Shown here one piece after another: positions 41,687 through 49,619 of a DNA stretch of 64,000 nt. This stretch comes from Betaproteobacteria bacterium HGW-Betaproteobacteria-11. Its GTDB lineage: Bacteria > Pseudomonadota > Gammaproteobacteria > Burkholderiales > Rhodocyclaceae. Position numbers and translations under genes: made by a program. Under the pieces are notes generated by a model. The model did not search any database, was not told the DNA's origin, and saw nothing but the letters and a program-made list of their open reading frames with translations. Every line of letters begins with the position of its first letter. Positions within the stretch are counted from its first letter, which is position 1. The stretch lies in contig PHCV01000004.1 of the NCBI GenBank assembly GCA_002842395.1, forward strand, positions 1 through 64,000, in the 5' to 3' direction.

Positions 41687-43855
41687 ATGCCATTCTCCTT
41701 GCGTTTGAAGCCGGCTCTTGCCTGTGCATTCTTGTTGGCGGGTTGCGATGCCGCGCTGAACGACCCTTATCCGGCGGCGGAACGCAACGTGAACATTCTT
41801 CACAGCGCATTTACCGATCGCCCCAAGCACCTCGATCCGGTGCAGTCGTACAGCGAAGACGAGATCGTTTTTACGGCGCAGATCTACGAGCCGCCGCTGC
41901 AATATCATTACCTCAAGCGTCCGTACACCCTGGAGCCTGCCACGGCCACCCGCGTGCCGCAGCCGGTTTACCTCGATGCGGAAAAGCGCGTGCTGCCGGC
42001 GAATGTCAATCCCGAACGGATTGCCTTCACCGACTACGTGATCTCGATCAAACCGGGAATTCTTTATCAGCCGCATCCGGCCTTTGCCCGCGATGCGGCG
42101 GGTGGCTACGTGTATCACCAGCTTGCCCCCGGGCAACTGGCGCGGATCGAGACCCTGGCCGATTTTCCCTTGCAGGGCAGCCGCGAATTGACGGCCGAGG
42201 ACTATGTCTATGGGCTGAAACGCCTGGCCCATCCGCGGCTCCACTCGCCGATTCTCGGCCTGATGAGCGAATACATCGTCGGCCTCGACGATTTTGCCGG
42301 GCGTTTGAAAAAGTCGGCGCTGGCGGAACGGCGGGATGAATGGCTGGACCTGCGCCAATACCCTCTGGCCGGAGCGGAGGTCATCGATCGTTACCGCTAC
42401 CGGATCCGCATAAAGGGAAAGTATCCGCAGTTTTTGTACTGGCTGGCGATGCCGTTTTTCGCGCCGATGCCGTGGGAAGCCGACAAGTTTTACAGCCAGC
42501 CGGGCATGGCGCAGAAAAACCTGACGCTGGACTGGTATCCGGTCGGCAGCGGGCCCTACATGCTGACCGAGAACGACCCGAATTCACGCATGATCCTACA
42601 GCGCAATCCGAATTTCCATGGCGAACGCTACCCTTGCGCGGGTGAGGTGGAAGACGCCAAGGCCGGCCTGCTAGACGATTGCGGCAAGCCGTTGCCCTTC
42701 ATCGACAAAATCGTTTTCACCCGGGAGAAAGAGCAGATCCCCTACTGGAACAAATTTTTGCAGGGGTATTACGATGCCTCGGGGATTTCCTCGGATACCT
42801 TCGACCAAGCCGTGCAGACCGGAAGCGGCGGCGAAGCGACGCTGACCGAAGCGATGCGGGGGCAGGGCATCACGCTGTCGACCTCGGTGGCGACCTCGAC
42901 CTTTTACATGGGATTCAACTGGCTCGACCCGCTGGTCGGCGGCGGCAATCCGGCAACCGCCGAGCGGGCGCGCAAATTGCGCCAGGCGATCGGCATCGCC
43001 ATCGACCAGGAAGAATTCATCTCGATTTTCCAGAATGGCCGCGGCGTCGCGGCGCAGGGACCGATTCCACCGGGTATCTTTGGCTTCAGGGAGGGCGAGC
43101 CCGGGATCAATCGCTTGATGTACGACTGGGTCGATGGCCAACCGCGGCGCAAACCGGTGGTCGAGGCGCGGCGCCTGCTGGCCGAAGCCGGCTGGCCCAA
43201 CGGCCGGGATGCACAGACCGGCGAGCCGCTGATCATTTATCTCGACACCACGGCGACCGGGGTGGGCGCCAAGTCGCGAATCGATTGGCTGGCCAAGCAG
43301 TTCGCCAAAATCGACGTACAGCTCGTGGTGCGCAACACCGACTACAACCGGTTTCAGGAGAAGGTACGCAAGGGCGCAGCCCAGCTTTTCTATTTCGGCT
43401 GGAATGCCGATTATCCCGATCCGGAAAATTTTCTTTTCCTGTTCTACGGCAAGCAGGCGGCCGTTGGCCAGGGCGGTTCGAACGCGGCCAATTACAGCAA
43501 TCCCGAGTATGACCGCCTGTTCGAGCAGATGCAGACCATGGAAAACGGGCCGCAGCGGCAAGCCTTGATCGACCGCATGATCGTCATCCTGCGCCAGGAT
43601 GCCCCCTGGGTCTGGGGCTTTCACCCGAAGGATTACAGCCTGCAACATGCCTGGCTGAAAAATAGCAAACCAAGCAAGGTTGGCCACAACACCTTGAAAT
43701 ATCAGCGGGTGGATGCCGCCCTGCGTGCGGCACGGCGTACCGAGTGGAACCGGCCGGTGTTCTGGCCGCTGGGGCTGCTGCTGTTGACCGGGGTCATCAT
43801 GGTCTGGCCGGCCTGGCGCAGCTATCGGCAGCGGGAGCGCATGACGGCCCGCTAG
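41687..43855 (+). CDS. ABC transporter substrate-binding lipoprotein (SBP family 5, oligopeptide type) with C-terminal helix
   Basis: 722 aa from MPFSLRLKPALACAFLLAGC, whose LAGC lipobox places the lipidated Cys at residue 20. SBP_bac_5 fold: DPVQSYSEDEIVFTAQIYEPP, YPVGSGPYML and the FFGWNADYPDPENFLF-type segment near residue 565. Unusual: a C-terminal membrane-like helix (about 690-708, FWPLGLLLLTGVIMVWPAW) and no permease or ATPase genes adjacent; the accessory block begins right after. A dispersed repeat gives KKSALAERRD at 208-217. Confidence 0.88.
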   Translation: MPFSLRLKPALACAFLLAGCDAALNDPYPAAERNVNILHSAFTDRPKHLDPVQSYSEDEIVFTAQIYEPPLQYHYLKRPYTLEPATATRVPQPVYLDAEKRVLPANVNPERIAFTDYVISIKPGILYQPHPAFARDAAGGYVYHQLAPGQLARIETLADFPLQGSRELTAEDYVYGLKRLAHPRLHSPILGLMSEYIVGLDDFAGRLKKSALAERRDEWLDLRQYPLAGAEVIDRYRYRIRIKGKYPQFLYWLAMPFFAPMPWEADKFYSQPGMAQKNLTLDWYPVGSGPYMLTENDPNSRMILQRNPNFHGERYPCAGEVEDAKAGLLDDCGKPLPFIDKIVFTREKEQIPYWNKFLQGYYDASGISSDTFDQAVQTGSGGEATLTEAMRGQGITLSTSVATSTFYMGFNWLDPLVGGGNPATAERARKLRQAIGIAIDQEEFISIFQNGRGVAAQGPIPPGIFGFREGEPGINRLMYDWVDGQPRRKPVVEARRLLAEAGWPNGRDAQTGEPLIIYLDTTATGVGAKSRIDWLAKQFAKIDVQLVVRNTDYNRFQEKVRKGAAQLFYFGWNADYPDPENFLFLFYGKQAAVGQGGSNAANYSNPEYDRLFEQMQTMENGPQRQALIDRMIVILRQDAPWVWGFHPKDYSLQHAWLKNSKPSKVGHNTLKYQRVDAALRAARRTEWNRPVFWPLGLLLLTGVIMVWPAWRSYRQRERMTAR
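42309..42334 (+). repeat. Dispersed 26-bp repeat, copy 11 (inside the binding-protein gene)
   Basis: AAAAGTCGGCGCTGG, spacer CGGA, ACGGCGG. In frame as KSALAERR. Confidence 0.9.
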
Positions 43856-43940
43856 CTGTGATGCTTCAACCGGTTGTTCACCCGGAAGATATGGGAAACC
43901 GGAGTTCACGACGCTTCAGTACCCAGAGGAGTCCCACCGG
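43856..43940. other. Junction between core genome and second accessory block
   Basis: No gene recognised; base composition starts to fall here. Confidence 0.35.
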
Positions 43941-44078
43941 ATGAACAGTCATAAGAATGCAGAACAACCTACATGGGGCACAAGTTGCCGATTGGGCGGA
44001 TTGAGATCGTGGGGCTGATGCCGACGGCCGAGGCCTCGGGCATCAGCGTGCGCACAGCCCGCAAGTGGCGCAGGCGCT
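43941..44078 (+). pseudogene. IS481-type transposase, 5' fragment
   Basis: Begins MNSHKNAE, the usual IS481 start, then shifts frame and reads LMPTAEASGISVRTARKWRR, a helix-turn-helix as in IS481 N-termini. Stops abruptly at the integrase fragment. Confidence 0.6.
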
Positions 44079-44087
44079 ACCCTCTAC

Positions 44088-44267
44088 CGCCAGATGCGCA
44101 AGAAACGCCTCGACCTCTGGCGCGCCCATGCCGCGCGGGTGGCGCTTTTCATGAAATAAAATAAACCGCCTAACCCATTGAGCATAAGACTCTTCCGTCC
44201 GAATGCTATAGTGCTTCAGACGGATCTTGTTGCGCACGGACTCAAGAAATGGAGAAGACGATGCCAT
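44088..44267 (-). pseudogene. Integron integrase (IntI-type tyrosine recombinase), 5' fragment
   Basis: About 60 codons from the ATG at 44267: MASSSPFLESVRNKIRLKHY, then SIRTEESYAQWVRRFILFHE, KRHPRGMGAPEVEAFLAHLA and VEG. This is the N-terminal SAM-like domain in the form typical of integron integrases (hYSxRTE.aY..W, fH.kRHP..mg). The catalytic domain is gone; IS481-fragment sequence abuts the break. Divergent from the cassette-like gene at 44401, the arrangement of an integron platform. Confidence 0.8.
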
Positions 44268-44400
44268 GTGGTATTGACCCGGATAAATACGCCCCCTATT
44301 ATTTACGTAACAAAATGATTTATCAATAAATATGAAAAGCACTGCGCTCGGTTTTTGTCCCATATTGGGACGGCTACTTATTAGTTAGGGTACCAGTACC
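44268..44400. other. Putative attI region between intI fragment and cassette gene
   Basis: 133 bp of AT-rich DNA upstream of the intI start. Contains the palindrome GTCCCA-TAT-TGGGAC (44357-44371) and, 14 bp before the next ATG, GTTAGGG (44384-44390), close to the integron core GTTRRRY except for its last base. Confidence 0.5.
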
Positions 44401-45462
44401 ATGAGCAAACGTCGTACCGAGGTGAATCTTGACCCCTTATGCCTAGAGTTGGTACCAGCAAGCATGTGGGGTAAGAATGTTCGCGCTGTAATCTCAAGAG
44501 AAAATTGGGATGCTCTTAGATGGAGTTTCGGTGCCACGAAAACCAAGCCACAATTTATGAAGCTTGATCTCCCTTATCCAGATTGGGAAGCACCAGTTGA
44601 ATGCAGAATATGTGGTGCCAAAGAAAATAACCTTGAACTTCATGAACAATGGCAATATGACGACGAGCGCTTTGTTCAGAAATTAATCGGCATGATTCCT
44701 ATATGTCAGGATTGTCATTTGGCAATGCATCTTGGGCGTGCGAACCAACTTGGATTGGCGGATAAGGCAAAAGATCATCTTGCTAGAGTCAATCAATGGA
44801 CAACGCGGCAGGTACAAAATCATGTCAAGGAAGCATTTGAAAAATGGATGCTACGTTCTCAAAATCGGTATACGTTAGACCTAAGTTGGCTTGCTCAGTG
44901 GATTCCGGAATCCAAAACACATTTAGGCTGGCTGGAGACGTCAAAGCGCTGGGCAGGGAACCGCCTAGATGCTATTGCATGGGCGCAAGAACTTTTAGAA
45001 TCGGATGCCGTTATTATCGATACCGAAACGACAGGATTGTTGGATTACTCTCGCGCAGAGGTCATAGAGCTTGCTGTTGTTACCACACGAGGGAAAATCG
45101 TTTATAACTCGCGCTTTCGTCCTCGTTACAGAATTCCGAAGCGAACAACAGAGATACATGGAATCACAGATGACGACGTTAAAAATGAATCGACATTCAA
45201 GGATGAGTATTCAAGCATAATGAAATCGATACATTCAAAAATTGCTATCGCTTACAAGGCAGATTTTGATAAAGGGGTTATAGAGCGTACTTGTGGGCTA
45301 TACAAGCTTGAGTCACCAGAATGCCGATGGGAATGCGCGATGCATGCATATCGCGCCTTTCAGGAGTCAGGGAGGTGGCTTCCGTTGCCAAGCGGTAAAC
45401 ACAATGCCCTGGATGACTGCAAGGCAGTGCTCAAGTTAATTCGTCGCATGGCAAAGGGGTGA
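44401..45462 (+). CDS. HNH-like zinc domain fused to a DEDDh (DnaQ-type) 3'-5' exonuclease; probable integron cassette gene
   Basis: 353 aa, markedly lower GC than neighbours. N-terminal part (about 60-125): CRICGAKENNLELHEQW and, 25 residues on, MIPICQDCHLAMH, i.e. CxxC - His - CxxCHxxxH as in HNH/McrA-type nucleases, but with HE where the HH pair is expected. A linker with Trp-rich helices follows. C-terminal part (about 205-350): Exo I VIIDTETTGLLD, HGITDDD, Exo II AYKADFDKGV, Exo III KHNALDDCKAV, a complete DEDDh set. Flanked by attI-like and attC-like sequence. No named family assigned; a nucleic-acid-degrading, possibly defensive, role is inferred. Confidence 0.8.
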   Translation: MSKRRTEVNLDPLCLELVPASMWGKNVRAVISRENWDALRWSFGATKTKPQFMKLDLPYPDWEAPVECRICGAKENNLELHEQWQYDDERFVQKLIGMIPICQDCHLAMHLGRANQLGLADKAKDHLARVNQWTTRQVQNHVKEAFEKWMLRSQNRYTLDLSWLAQWIPESKTHLGWLETSKRWAGNRLDAIAWAQELLESDAVIIDTETTGLLDYSRAEVIELAVVTTRGKIVYNSRFRPRYRIPKRTTEIHGITDDDVKNESTFKDEYSSIMKSIHSKIAIAYKADFDKGVIERTCGLYKLESPECRWECAMHAYRAFQESGRWLPLPSGKHNALDDCKAVLKLIRRMAKG

Positions 45463-45484
45463 AATATCTTGAAACTCTGGGTAT

Positions 45485-45505
45485 GCCCTAACAATCGCAT
45501 GAACT
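45485..45505 (+). other. attC-like left half-site after the cassette gene
   Basis: GCCCTAACAATCGCATGAAC, resembling the R''-L'' half of attC sites (RYYYAAC then AAT..TCAAG). The right half with GTTRRRY is missing, apparently cut by the RAYT element beginning at 45506. Confidence 0.45.
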
Positions 45506-46285
45506 AAAGGGGCCAGGCTCAATTAAGTTATAGTTCCCCCATGCCTCGCCGCCCCCGCATCCACTTGCCCGGACACCCGCTTCACATCGTGCAGCGCGGG
45601 CACAACCGCGATGCCTGTTTCTTCGGCGAGGACGATTACTTGGCCTATCGCCAATGGCTGGGCGAAGGACTGAAAGCCAGCGGTTGCCTGTTGCATGCCT
45701 ACGTGCAAATGACCAACCACGTTCATTTGCTGCTCACGCCTCCCGATTCGGCGGCGGCGGCGCAACTGATGATTTCGCTGGGGCGGCGTTACGTCCAGTA
45801 CATCAACAAGGCCTACCGCCGCACGGGCACCTTGTGGGATAGCCGCTACAAGTCGTCGCTGGTGCAGTCCGACCACTACCTGCTGCTTTGCCAGCGCTAC
45901 ATCGAGCTGAACCCGGTGCGGGCCGGCATGGTGGATGATCCGGCACACTACCGCTGGAGCAGCTACCGGGCCAACGGGCTGGGACAGGCGGATGAGCTGC
46001 TGGTGCCGCATGCGGTTTATCTGGCGCTGGATCGCGCGGCGGCGGAGCGGCAGGCGGCTTATCGGGCCTTGTTTCGCTCTGAACTGGACTCCGCCACGAT
46101 TGACGATATCCGACTGGCCCTGAACCAGGGGCAGCCCTTGGGCACCTCACGCTTTTATGCGGCCATCGAGCAGGCGACCGGCCAGCGCCGGGAGATACGC
46201 CCACGCGGGCGACCAAGAAAACCAGTCGGGGATGTCGAGGTGGCGGCGCGACAAGCTGACCTTGATATTTGAGCCTGGCCCCTTT
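45506..46285 (+). mobile_element. RAYT-type transposon unit
   Basis: Perfect 15-bp terminal inverted repeats (AAAGGGGCCAGGCTC and its complement) flank a single Y1 transposase gene; the right repeat overlaps the stop codon region. Confidence 0.8.
45541..46272 (+). CDS. REP-associated tyrosine transposase (Y1_Tnp, IS200-like)
   Basis: 243 aa. HUH motif in TNHVHLLLTP, N-terminal MPRRPRIHLPGHPLHIVQRG and the later YKSSLVQSDHYLLLCQRYIELNPVRAGMV segment carrying the nucleophile Tyr are diagnostic. A basic tail (RPRGRPRKP) fits DNA binding. High GC unlike the upstream cassette gene, so a separate arrival. Likely intact. Confidence 0.93.
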   Translation: MPRRPRIHLPGHPLHIVQRGHNRDACFFGEDDYLAYRQWLGEGLKASGCLLHAYVQMTNHVHLLLTPPDSAAAAQLMISLGRRYVQYINKAYRRTGTLWDSRYKSSLVQSDHYLLLCQRYIELNPVRAGMVDDPAHYRWSSYRANGLGQADELLVPHAVYLALDRAAAERQAAYRALFRSELDSATIDDIRLALNQGQPLGTSRFYAAIEQATGQRREIRPRGRPRKPVGDVEVAARQADLDI

Positions 46286-46289
46286 TATT

Positions 46290-46544
46290 CTAGTAGTGGA
46301 AGCGCAACTGAGCGATCAGGAGGGAGTCACCGTCGACGCGATACACCATGCGATGCTCATCTGTTATGCGGCGTGACCAAAATCCTGATAGCGCATGTTT
46401 TAACGGTTCGGGTTTTCCCACGCCCGCGAACGGCTCGCGTTGCGTCTCACGTATTAGCTTGTTGATCCGCTCGACCATGCGCTTGTCTTGCTTTTGCCAA
46501 TAGAGATAATCGTCCCATGCCTCGTCCGCGAAAATCAGCTTCAC
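46290..46544 (-). CDS. yoeB: YoeB/Txe-family toxin (ribosome-dependent mRNA endonuclease)
   Basis: 84 aa, start MKLIFADEAWDDYLYWQKQD and end HRMVYRVDGDSLLIAQLRFHY match YoeB closely, including the C-terminal His-Tyr. RelE fold, cleaves mRNA at the ribosomal A site. Its ATG overlaps the antitoxin stop (ATGA). Confidence 0.95.
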   Translation of the reverse strand: MKLIFADEAWDDYLYWQKQDKRMVERINKLIRETQREPFAGVGKPEPLKHALSGFWSRRITDEHRMVYRVDGDSLLIAQLRFHY

Positions 46545-46792
46545 TTTGCCAGTTTCCGCTCAACGCCTTTGCCGGCGTTCAGTTGCGCAATGGCCGACAG
46601 AAGGCGCTTGGCGTTGGCGGGTGTTCGCAAAAGGTAGGCGGTTTCTTCAAGCGCCTTGTAGTCTTCGAGCGAGAGCATCACAACGGACTGTTCGCCGTTG
46701 CGGGTAATGATCAACGCTTCGTGGTCGTTACAAACTCGGTCCATGGTGGTGGCAAGGTTTGCACGAACAGTGGTGTAGGTTATTGCGTCCAT
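46541..46792 (-). CDS. yefM: YefM/Phd-family antitoxin
   Basis: 83 aa. N-terminal DNA-binding half (MDAITYTTVRANLATTMDRV, then ITRNGEQSVVMLSLEDYKAL) and a disordered toxin-binding tail. Neutralises YoeB and autoregulates the operon, probably via the TGTAC palindrome upstream. Confidence 0.94.
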   Translation of the reverse strand: MDAITYTTVRANLATTMDRVCNDHEALIITRNGEQSVVMLSLEDYKALEETAYLLRTPANAKRLLSAIAQLNAGKGVERKLAK

Positions 46793-46808
46793 GGTGGGGC
46801 TCCAGTAA

Positions 46809-46826
46809 TGTACGCCTTACTGTACA
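46809..46826. promoter_or_regulatory. yefM-yoeB operator
   Basis: TGTACGCCTTACTGTACA: two TGTAC cores 12 bp apart, as in E. coli yefM operators, directly upstream of the antitoxin ATG. Confidence 0.65.
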
Positions 46827-46948
46827 GAACAAAAAGCGGGGTGTCCAGCAGTCCAGGATGACCAATCCTTCGTTGCAGGGGACGTTCCGCCTATCGGTGG
46901 CGCGATCCGCATCGCGCCATTTGTCATTTCCATCCTCGGAAGTTCAAA

Positions 46949-46974
46949 TTGCCGTACTGCCAGCGCCGACTTTC
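46949..46974 (-). repeat. Dispersed 26-bp repeat, copy 12 (intergenic, minus)
   Basis: On the minus strand GAAAGTCGGCGCTGG, spacer CAGT, ACGGCAA. Confidence 0.85.
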
Positions 46975-46994
46975 AAGGAAGCACGGAATAAGTC

Positions 46995-47070
46995 GTCATG
47001 CCCGCGCAGGCGGGCATCCAGTGCGTTGATGTTCATGGAGTCCCGGGTGTGTCGAGACCGCGGGAATGAC
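46995..47070. repeat. REP/MITE-like element
   Basis: Begins GTCATGCCCGCG and ends CGCGGGAATGAC, with an internal CCCGCGCAGGCGGG hairpin; the common proteobacterial GTCATTCCCGCG-type repeat, about 76 bp. Confidence 0.75.
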
Positions 47071-47084
47071 GAAATCGGGCTTGT

Positions 47085-47250
47085 TCAGCGGTTCCTTAAC
47101 GCCGGTCGCCGGTGCCTCGTCTTTCGGGCATTTTTGCGCTTTTCTCCCTGCTGTCCCGGCCCGTGGTGCGTGAGCTTCTCGATGTTGTGCACCAGACAGA
47201 ACAGCTTCCGTTGCCTGTCCACCTTCGTCTGACCGCGCAGCGTGAAGCGC
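47085..47250 (-). pseudogene. IS1182-type transposase, 3' fragment
   Basis: Minus-strand frame CGKRFTLRGQTKVDRQRK then LFCLVHNIEKLTHHG is the C-terminal end of IS1182/DDE transposases. About 40 codons; no ends or upstream portion found. Confidence 0.6.
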
Positions 47251-47609
47251 TTACCGCAACGACACGGGCTACACGCAAGACCAGACGAGCGATTTTTTCC
47301 GTTTCGTCGATGCCGGCATGAGCCAGTTCCACGCGGGTGGCGGCGACGCACTCCTGCAACGGGCGCTCACGGCTACGGCCGCCCCAACGCCATGCGCCGC
47401 TACCTCTACGCGAAAATCAGACAGAAGGAAGCCGTTCGACATCCTGTATTTCATGCCTTCCGTCACCGCGATCGTCAACCTCGACGACCGGCTTTTCCAT
47501 GACCCCGGAGCTGCTCTACACCGGGATCACCAACCTGGAGTTGAGATTCAGGCTGTATGCGCTGAGCGGCGACAGCCAGACGGAGTTCGGCGAGAAGAAG
47601 AGGCGTTGA
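47248..47609 (+). pseudogene. Outer-membrane-protein-like gene, 3' fragment with frameshifts
   Basis: Successive plus frames read NDTGYTQDQTSDFFRFVDAG, then GYGRPNAMRRYLYAKIRQKE, then FDILYFMPSVTAIVNLDDR, then MTPELLYTGITNLELRFRL ending FGEKK. Together these look like the last beta-strands of a barrel protein broken by at least two frameshifts. Family not identified. Confidence 0.45.
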
Positions 47610-47654
47610 ATTCCTATCCTTTGGCGGCAAACCCGTGCCCATCACCCAAAAGAA

Positions 47655-47685
47655 AACGCCCATCCTGTTGAACAGGATGGGCGGA
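47655..47685 (-). terminator. Terminator of the copper-storage protein gene
   Basis: On the minus strand a 13-bp stem CGCCCATCCTGTT/AACAGGATGGGCG followed by TTTTCTTTT. Confidence 0.85.
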
Positions 47686-47716
47686 AAGGACAGCAGCCTG
47701 ACGGTTGCGCCAATTA

Positions 47717-48175
47717 TCAACTTGTTATTTTCTTGCACTCCTTGTAGCAGGCGTCACAGGCATCCGCTGCCTGCCTGCATTGCACGTGCTCTTTCTCGAA
47801 TTTGCGGCACTCCTTTTCGCAATCCTGGCAGACATCCATCACCACCCTGGCCATTTTGACAAGATGCGCCGAGTCGTAGAGGGCAAGCTGCTCGATCGCC
47901 TCGCACGCGGCAATCATTTCGCTGACGCGCATCGCGCAGATGGCCATCCCCTTGTTCTCGCCCTCGGTCCACAGATGGGTGCCGTGGCTGAGGCAGGCAT
48001 GGCCTTTTTTCACGCAGTCGGCGGCGGCATCAATCAGGCTCTGGCTCTTGTTCATGCCCTGCATACGCTGGTGACCGGCAGCATGGCCGGCATGTTCTGC
48101 CGCAAATGCAGTATGTCCAGCGGCAGCAAGCATCAAGCCTCCGATGGTTCCTTTAAACATTTCTCTTCTGTCCAT
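47717..48175 (-). CDS. Csp-like four-helix-bundle copper-storage protein, Tat-exported
   Basis: 152 aa from ATG 48175, which sits 7 bp after AAGGAG (an ATG two codons upstream is too close). Twin-arginine-like signal MDRREMFKGTIGGLMLAAAG ending at about residue 26, then an HAGHAAGH stretch and a helical body with 11 Cys, many as CxxC/CxxxC (VCQDCEKECRKF, ACDACYKECKK) facing one bundle core. Csp1 of methanotrophs binds many Cu(I) ions this way and is also Tat-exported. Stands alone among decayed genes, so it is the useful cargo of this block. Confidence 0.88.
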   Translation of the reverse strand: MDRREMFKGTIGGLMLAAAGHTAFAAEHAGHAAGHQRMQGMNKSQSLIDAAADCVKKGHACLSHGTHLWTEGENKGMAICAMRVSEMIAACEAIEQLALYDSAHLVKMARVVMDVCQDCEKECRKFEKEHVQCRQAADACDACYKECKKITS

Positions 48176-48239
48176 GATCATTCTCCTTGGGTTGGTAAAC
48201 TCAACTGAAAAACGGAAACGGGCACAAGCCCGCTGTCAT

Positions 48240-48592
48240 CCTATTCCGTTTCCAAATCAAAAGTTGCTTTATTGCGAATGCAATCAAATTGCACAACACC
48301 AGCATCAAGCGCCGCAGGCCCAGCAATATCAGCACCACCGCCGCACCCCTGCGTATCCAGCGCGTGATCCACTCGCGGTTATGACGCAGGTTTTTGGCAA
48401 ACAGGCCACAAAGGTCTGGATCTCCAGCAGCAGGGCAGCCTCATCTACCGTACTGTCTCCGCTCCAGTCGAGCATGACATCGGCGACCCGTGCGGGTTCG
48501 TGCCGCACTAGGCCGAGCAGCATCCGGATCATCTGGTCGCGGCGTTCCTCGGTGAGACGGCCCACCATGCCGAAGTCGTAAAGCCAAACAGA
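48240..48592 (-). pseudogene. UbiB/AarF (ABC1) kinase-like gene, internally deleted fragment
   Basis: Minus strand: LYDFGMVGRLTEERRDQMIR, then LGLVRHEPARVADVMLDW, EAALLLEIQTFVA, joined to a hydrophobic tail (RRGAAVVLILLGLRRLMLVL). The DFG-containing kinase block and the C-terminal helices survive; the rest is lost. Confidence 0.6.
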
Positions 48593-48610
48593 AGCCTATC
48601 GGCCGTCAGC

Positions 48611-48801
48611 CCGCAATTGACATTGGCGCTGAACTACTAACGTCGGTGCGTGAAATGAAGGTCGGCATTCGTGCTCGTGCCCATCACCCCGAGATTTCTG
48701 AAATTGCTCGCGCTCGTTTGGTGTCTTGGCTTTCTCAAACCGCATTCGCGGCACTACTCGGAGTTTCCGTGCGCACACTCCAAGACTGGGAACAGGGGCG
48801 T
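48611..48801 (+). pseudogene. HTH antitoxin-like fragment (NadS/HigA type)
   Basis: ELLTSVREMKVGIRARAHH, then LSQTAFAALLGVSVRTLQDW and EQGR, the helix-turn-helix of NadS/HigA antitoxins; the usual C-terminal continuation is replaced by unrelated sequence. No toxin partner nearby. Confidence 0.5.
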
Positions 48802-48869
48802 CTACCTTTTCATTCAACCCGGACTGGCGCGATAAAGCCGCGCCAGCTGCCCAGCGCAATGGGGTGGCC

Positions 48870-49619
48870 TCAGTCTTGCGCCGGCTCGGCCGGCATGTCG
48901 AGGCGTTGCCAATGACCACGGCGTAACACTTCGAGCGGGTGGAACTTTGCCTTATAGGCCATTTTTCGGCTGTCGCGAATCCAGTAGCCGAGATACAGCC
49001 AGGGTAGCCCGGCATGCTGGCACTGGGCGATCTGCCAGAGTACGGCGAATGTGCCGTAACTGGCCTGTGGATCGGAACAATCATAGAAGGTGTAGACCGC
49101 CGAGAGGCCGTCATCGAGAACGTCGATGACGCTGACGATGCGCAGGATGCCGTTTTCGCGGAACTCGATCAGCCGGGTGTCGATCTGGGTTTGCAGCAGG
49201 AACTGGCTGTATTGTTCCCGGCTGTCCTGATCCATCCCGCCACCGGCATGACGTGCGGCCTGGTAGCGTTGGTAGAGCTGATAGTGCTCTTCGCTGAAGA
49301 CAGGGGAGCATTCGACCACCTGCAATGCGGCATGGCGGGCGAGTGCGCGCCGCTGGCTGCGATCGGGTGTGAAATGACCGACATCGAGCCTGACCGGCTG
49401 GCATTCACGGCAGGTATCGCAGTGCGGCCGGTAGGTGAACAGGCCGCTACGGCGAAACCCGGCATGTACCAGTTGGCTGTAGGTGATCGGGTCGATCAGG
49501 TGGGCCGGGCCGGCGACCTGGGAACGTGCCATGCGCCCAGGCAGATAAGAACAGCCATAGGGGGCCGTGGCGTAGAACTGGAGCAAAGGGAAGGGTGGCA
49601 GATCGCGCAGGTGCGTCAT
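48870..49619 (-). CDS. bpt: Aspartate/glutamate leucyltransferase (bacterial ATE1-like)
   Basis: 249 aa from [10 protein letters not shown]. Transfers Leu from leucyl-tRNA to N-terminal Asp/Glu, creating ClpS/ClpAP N-degrons. [40 protein letters not shown] (split Cys pair) and [24 protein letters not shown] are diagnostic. Its ATG overlaps the aat stop, so the two transferases are co-translated. Confidence 0.96.

Follow-up and report, generated by a model that had tools for sequence, protein, structure and literature searches.

HNH-type restriction enzymes, such as the McrA-like proteins, have a zinc-knuckle HNH-type domain in common with the protein described here. One such enzyme, encoded in genome G656, also occupies the same genomic slot as a relative of this protein, but it keeps the HH pair and has no exonuclease domain. 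CasDinG-HNH and ExoDinG likewise carry HNH or 3'-5' exonuclease add-ons on DNA enzymes. However, both are built on a DinG helicase, and no subgroup seen in the accessible part of the source joins the two nuclease domains (PMC11981726). The stand-alone phage and plasmid proteins of PHROG 5200, in which the name "endonuclease" is an annotation only, share the pattern CxxC...ExHExWxYD...CxxCHxxxHxG...RS with the N-terminal domain (33-46% identity for aligned members), whereas the present copy is fused to an exonuclease and carries a 17-residue insertion before the CxxC. TrwB/TraD-type coupling proteins bear a C-terminal copy of the same N-domain family, but their partner is a conjugation-type ATPase. 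Phage 186-type exonucleases (PHROG 192) share all DEDDh residues with the C-terminal domain, which is 28-38% identical to 45 viral members, but no viral member found bears the present HNH-like domain. Exonuclease X and DnaQ epsilon share its fold and active site at 20-26% identity; neither is known to carry an HNH-like domain.

The fusion is thus built from known parts, and their combination is covered by no PADLOC model. Four PADLOC matches to the protein (DEDDh, PDC-S48 twice, and a weak Cas13Nterm) stop short of the N-terminal domain, and a known PADLOC system was rejected because no model covers both domains. The fusion was also not described in the titles or abstract starts found in a literature search whose coverage mostly excluded subscription journals. 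A previous sequence-only reading had proposed the gene as the best candidate for an undescribed system. This holds for the whole protein as far as PADLOC is concerned, but not for the N-terminal module by itself, which belongs to PHROG 5200 and occurs in many viral contigs and plasmids.

The gene lies in a window of 64,000 nucleotides, the whole stretch of DNA that was analyzed, and its features are listed in Table 1. The open reading frame is exactly where it had been reported, and it is not a chance frame because RNase_T, phrog_192, and phrog_5200 profiles match its product. The 353-aa protein is an altered HNH-type zinc domain joined to a DEDDh exonuclease with intact active-site residues. 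The AlphaFold model of the full-length protein has a mean pLDDT of 88.3 and a pTM of 0.61, with residues 171-183 below 50.

Table 1. Features of the fusion-gene locus in the window, and contents of the slot upstream of the psd-like gene in the genus of G581 (flanking genes named by eye).
Feature	Positions	Strand	Basis or content
HNH-like + DEDDh exonuclease fusion gene	44401..45462	+	353 aa; profile matches; full-length relative 41% identical
N-terminal HNH-like zinc domain, aa 13-166	44437..44898	+	phrog_5200, alignments, AlphaFold, HNH-type alignment
C-terminal DEDDh 3'-5' exonuclease domain, aa 195-353	44983..45459	+	RNase_T, phrog_192, Foldseek, conservation
~5-kb insertion	43856..48869	.	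Between solute-binding-protein-like and bpt-like genes (by eye); absent from four genus-mates
Truncated integron integrase, ~61 N-terminal IntI residues	44043..44363	-	TIGR02249 E 3.2e-18, profile 1-61 of 315
GTTAGGG, attI/cassette recombination junction	44384-44390	+	Sequence; comparison with intI upstream regions of this genome and of genus-mates
5' half of cassette attC, truncated	45485-45503	+	CCCTAAC at 45486-45492 is the exact reverse complement of GTTAGGG
REP-associated Y1 transposase element	45501..46290	+	25-nt terminal inverted repeats, 88% complementary; cuts attC
psd slot G656			C5 methylase + HNH-type mREase_IV (1.6e-21) + control protein
psd slot G682			mREase_IV (1.3e-62)
psd slot G679			HNH family (1.8e-114)
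psd slot G431 C7			MTase_II + REase_II
psd slot G647			C5 methylase + REase_II (1e-94)
psd slot G563			HEC-05 piece (3.1e-97); another gene between HEC-05 piece and psd
psd slot G437			Two ORFs, no PADLOC match
psd slots G431 C13, G589			No defence gene, different neighbours; judged from ORFs by eye

The C-terminal half matches Pfam RNase_T over residues 204-346 (E 7.7e-16; 59.5 bits against a gathering score of 24) and phrog_192 over residues 195-352 (E 1.5e-33). As previously claimed, all DEDDh motifs are present. Alignment A4, built from 44 N rows and 45 of 50 chosen C rows, shows the catalytic residues D207, E209, D290, H334, and D339 unvarying in every one of its 45 viral C-domain sequences. 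Its retrieval patterns spanned DTETTG and IHGIT and left D290, H334, and D339 free to vary. Relatives of this half include the phage 186 exonuclease, which is annotated in that phage as of unknown function and not essential. A pattern scan of genome contigs gave 12 loci, each of which matches the exonuclease half alone. In a Foldseek search with the full-length model, Exonuclease X (2.3e-8) and then DnaQ epsilon (6.2e-8) were at the top. The closeness of the DEDDh fold to these enzymes would fit an ordinary chromosomal repair exonuclease, but we consider this very improbable: no full-length match was found in 60 relatives, the fusion occurs in one of 399 genomes of the window's order (its own), and the gene is a cassette within an insertion. 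A housekeeping repair gene was rejected on this distribution and context.

Six exonuclease relatives on viral contigs (L203, L209, L212, L226, L237, and L265) carry other cysteine-rich N-terminal extensions, as judged by eye. Because of these extensions, a zinc module ahead of a PHROG 192-type exonuclease may be a recurrent design.

The N-terminal half has no Pfam match at E 0.1 and matches phrog_5200 ("HNH endonuclease") over residues 64-170 (E 6.9e-29). All 45 viral relatives in alignment A5 match the same profile, and 39 and 35 of them match two other HNH PHROGs. Among the 29 weak N-domain rows of a phylum search, eight were checked; seven of these match Pfam HNH, six above the cut-off. When modeled alone, the N-terminal part has a mean pLDDT of 84.9 and a pTM of 0.79. 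Over the core (residues 71-160), block means are 92-97 in one of the two models and similar in the other. The predicted strands at 79-87 and 92-101 and helix at 103-109 follow the order of a bba-metal core, which the C68/C71/C102/C105 zinc knuckle surrounds.

Solved structures resemble this model at a weak level. Foldseek against the PDB returned nothing at E below 0.001. A second structural look gave Z 3.2 for the HNH nickase 4h9d and Z 4.8 for the top two rows, 6sz9_C (a coupling-complex chain) and 5x1h_C (DotN), over 81-84 residues (for DotN, 84 residues at 12% identity), where a Z under 8 may reflect a common arrangement. When solved structures were searched by profile up to E 5, the hits were an HNH endonuclease (E 0.035) and three rows between 0.8 and 1.2, including two McrA enzymes. 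DotN, from the type IV coupling complex, was not returned by this search and, at Z 4.8, is kept as a weak lead to a homologue of the domain. Among viral predictions, Foldseek matched an unnamed protein (1.5e-4) and then the "HNH endonuclease" of phage V18 (4e-3). Because the solved-fold comparison is weak, the HNH assignment rests mainly on profiles. The HNH-type reading made earlier, with its altered residue pair, is supported by the profiles and the predicted topology, though the Foldseek search of the PDB offered no counterpart at E below 0.001.

The motif of the module is as first described (C68-x2-C71, L80-H81-E82, and C102-x2-C105-H106-x3-H110). As first noted, the HH pair lacks its second His: profile alignments to HNH-type proteins place Glu82 where most of them have this residue. 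The general-base His of HNH enzymes (the second of HH, or the His of DH) is therefore absent. The HNH Asn is also absent, and Gly97 stands in a column with G in 39, R in five, and K in one of the 45 A5 rows. H106 and H110, the putative metal-ligand histidines of the helix, are kept in 45 of 45 A5 rows, in which the four cysteines, N131, R152, and S153 are invariant as well. D87 is also identical in all 45, but the fusion relative has Asn there. The retrieval pattern of A5, ExHEx[WF]xY[DQV][DN], fixed E79, H81, E82, W/F84, and Y86 by construction, forced D87 only partly, and left H106 and H110 unforced. Free of this selection, H81-E82 is kept in eight of eight A1 rows and in the fusion relative. 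Judging from these alignments, the histidines of metal-ligand type seem to have been retained and the general base to have been exchanged.

With this altered site, the N domain could have lost catalysis and serve the exonuclease solely as a zinc module for DNA binding or protein docking, an arrangement compatible with either a defence or an accessory role. Glu for the general-base His and Gly for the Asn point in this direction, as do the cysteine-rich extensions of several phage exonuclease relatives and, weakly, the coupling-complex chains (DotN included) at the top of the structural rows. Against this reading stand the identity of H106, H110, and the partly forced D87 throughout A5, and the H-E pair in all A1 rows and in the fusion relative with its Asn at D87. 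Also on this side, the HNH domain of IscB likewise lacks the Asn, according to the accessible part of the source (PMC11981726). Overall, we place a dead N domain slightly below an even chance.

The surroundings of the gene identify how it arrived. Low GC content and cassette-like flanks had been taken to indicate transfer, and all three points are borne out. The GC content of the gene is 45.4%, compared with 61.9% for the window, and its flanks comprise an intI remnant, a GTTAGGG junction, and a 5' attC half. The intI remnant, also located at 44067-44249 in a genome search, reads away from the fusion gene. GTTAGGG stands ten bases before the ATG, and the sequence after the stop codon, GCCCTAACAATCGCATGAA, is the 5' half of an attC that resembles an attC of the same genome starting GCCCAACAATCGGTTCCA. 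The gene adjoins attI/intI and is oriented as a first cassette. A complete 3' attC is absent, as the site is cut by the transposase element (PF01797 above cut-off, NF047646 below cut-off). The gene was filed as a decayed cassette because its attC keeps the 5' half only, and the locus is a decayed integron with one trapped cassette. In four examined genus-mates, of eight with the site, the bpt-like gene lies within ~100 nt of the solute-binding-protein-like gene, without the insertion. The fusion gene was therefore acquired by horizontal transfer. A cassette promoter could correspond to the promoter-like site at 44274-44302, but sites of this kind are about as common in shuffled sequence (three found, 2.4 expected). 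Rfam matched nothing in 43800-49000.

The same insertion holds a YoeB/YefM toxin-antitoxin pair beside the cassette (46290-46792, minus strand; Pfam). At ~43920-44110, where intI breaks off, there is a remnant that by eye resembles what is presumably the start of an IS481-type transposase.

A full-length relative of 380 aa is encoded in G581, a genome from another class of the phylum, and is 41% identical over both halves. This relative rules out a chance fusion or an assembly artefact. The HNH-like and DEDDh fusion is a real, rare family, with two members found. G581 is the only carrier among 78 genomes of its class. The N domain by itself is more widespread, standing alone in viral contigs (155 had a relative, of which 80 were kept and read) and occurring in 105 plasmid records. 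In genomes, it occurs in 4 of 369 of the class, and in the phylum in 3 of 398 strongly and 29 of 398 with weak HNH-like hits; these counts include the window's own genome, and the G072 copy is itself an A1 row. Other partners of the N domain are TrwB/TraD-type coupling ATPases and DUF5710 (two loci each). The coupling ATPases, which carry the HNH-like domain at the C-terminus, are at L028 1468-3354 (minus strand) and L029 88-1851 (plus strand).

These relatives raise the main rival explanation, in which the gene is a phage- or plasmid-derived accessory for DNA processing (replication, recombination, or end repair) captured as a cassette, with no function in defence. The C-terminal half groups with phage 186-type exonucleases of unknown, non-essential function, and the N-terminal half is a phage and plasmid family with conjugation-type and DUF5710 fusions of its own. 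Additionally, in one phage clade the HNH-like gene is beside a polymerase with a phrog_192 exonuclease. These are 3 of 52 scanned same-strand viral neighbours of the HNH-like gene, all encoding one kind of DNA polymerase that matches phrog_192, as inspected in detail for L076 (the set comprised 88 neighbours, 53 on the same strand, with the upstream neighbour of L101 left out). In L069, L076, and L088, the HNH-like gene follows this ~1,370-aa DNA polymerase, and the L076 polymerase bears the phrog_192 exonuclease domain at its N-terminus. Both halves have their closest relatives in phages and plasmids, where these probably serve the element. The fusion, however, has not been found among them. 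Two pattern-based full-length viral scans returned none, none of 160 viral loci has both halves in one ORF, and coverage of the protein stays below 80% in all 308 phage records. Two of 1862 plasmid records attain this coverage, and the one inspected has no N domain (the best 40 matches were listed of the 308 and of the 1862). The locus scans started from short peptide patterns, with which relatives can be missed, and the viral exonuclease scan kept 80 of 305 hits. Both fusion genes are instead on bacterial-genome contigs, in contexts shared with defence genes. We regard the accessory explanation as unlikely. A homing-endonuclease-like phage gene as such was rejected, as no viral fusion was seen in the scans.

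Integron cassettes can protect against phages. In the accessible parts of published screens, at least 16 of 179 cassettes from V. cholerae and 9 of 57 from V. parahaemolyticus had anti-phage activity, and most tested cassettes gave none (PMC12409362; see also PMC12444791). The window's own genome has two other integron stretches. A second decayed integron, on contig C24 (L194 7243-11300), contains an intI remnant, a ThsB-type TIR gene (PADLOC 2.5e-74), and PDC-M50A (1.1e-30), followed by a HEAT-repeat protein adjoining an N6/N4 methyltransferase and then by an attC-like site. Contig C3 has a complete intI, a ThsB-type TIR gene adjoining a caspase-domain gene, and a C5 methyltransferase. In these two stretches, whose cassette boundaries were mapped in part, six of ten hand-picked ORFs have such PADLOC matches, one has a weak HEAT-model match only, and three have none. 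The TIR and caspase-domain genes of C3 (L193, G000:C3, 6807-8164, minus strand) lie upstream of the complete integrase and look like what we take to be a TIR-caspase defence pair.

The second fusion gene has a different setting. In G581 it is alone between valS-like and psd-like genes, and GTTRRRY sites are not enriched around it (10 matches, 8.0 expected). The sequence-only reading had named housekeeping DNA-repair operons as the setting that would speak against its proposal, and the sole full-length relative is not in one. Gene names here (valS, alaS, psd, bpt, solute-binding protein, and MYG1) were assigned by eye from translations. The psd-like gene is present in 12 of 16 genomes of G581's genus, and nine loci besides that of G581 were fetched; G668, G531, and G623, where the contig start falls at or within the gene, were left out, as was another, partial copy in G563. 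Restriction or other defence genes occupy the slot upstream of the psd-like gene at six of the nine (a raw count). Seven of the loci have valS or alaS at the opposite flank, and six of these are defence-type. G656, whose slot holds a restriction-modification-like set, is a close sister of G581 (valS 97-99% and psd 96% identical). Across the genus, this slot (L141, L296-L304) is a hotspot in which the restriction-modification or nuclease genes differ from one sister genome to another. The two placements, in different classes and contexts, put the lone fusion gene where defence genes sit.

Because of these two defence-type placements and the intact exonuclease, we favour, at marginally better than even, that the single-gene cassette encodes a stand-alone two-domain DNA nuclease directed at phage or plasmid DNA entering the cell. 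Its HNH-derived zinc domain at the N-terminus would engage DNA, either nicking it via the unusual His-Glu site or binding only. It would then deliver the DEDDh domain, which would degrade the DNA from 3' ends. It is inferred that the substrate is DNA, that the domains cooperate, and that the role is anti-phage or anti-plasmid. The putative stand-alone defence nuclease of the sequence-only reading thus gains circumstantial evidence of position in two contexts. Several findings count against defence: the N domain has neither the general-base His nor the HNH Asn, only two fusion members were found, both halves have phage and plasmid relatives, some psd slots hold no defence gene (G437, G431 C13, and G589), most cassettes in the published screens were inactive against phages, and no means of sparing host DNA is visible. 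Host DNA could conceivably be spared through modified bases, DNA ends, or replication structures.

Since no modification gene accompanies the fusion gene, either foreign DNA is recognized or the activity is restrained. The latter would suit a nuclease effector of abortive infection, silent until a phage signal releases it to destroy cellular DNA. We judge this improbable, as no obvious partner, sensor, or inhibitor gene was seen by eye in the cassette or beside the relative. A more specific form of the stand-alone nuclease against incoming DNA is a new class of one-gene restriction-like nucleases. In such a class, a His-Glu HNH-derived domain would nick or license foreign DNA, and the DEDDh exonuclease of the same protein would take over the 3' end. 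Neither a modification enzyme nor a helicase or NTPase would be involved, and the protein would have been assembled from phage and plasmid parts and traded via integrons and restriction hotspots. We offer this class tentatively and consider it rather unlikely.

If the defence role is true, the fusion would be a self-contained defence protein that degrades DNA, very small and of cassette size, needing no methylase, helicase, or NTPase. It would also give a hint of function for the PHROG 5200 family of phages and plasmids, whose members lack the canonical base. One member of the family, an HNH-like ORF on plasmid pA313-CMY-97 (L026 3995-4492, plus strand), is absent from the gene table, which lists a smaller gene on the opposite strand.
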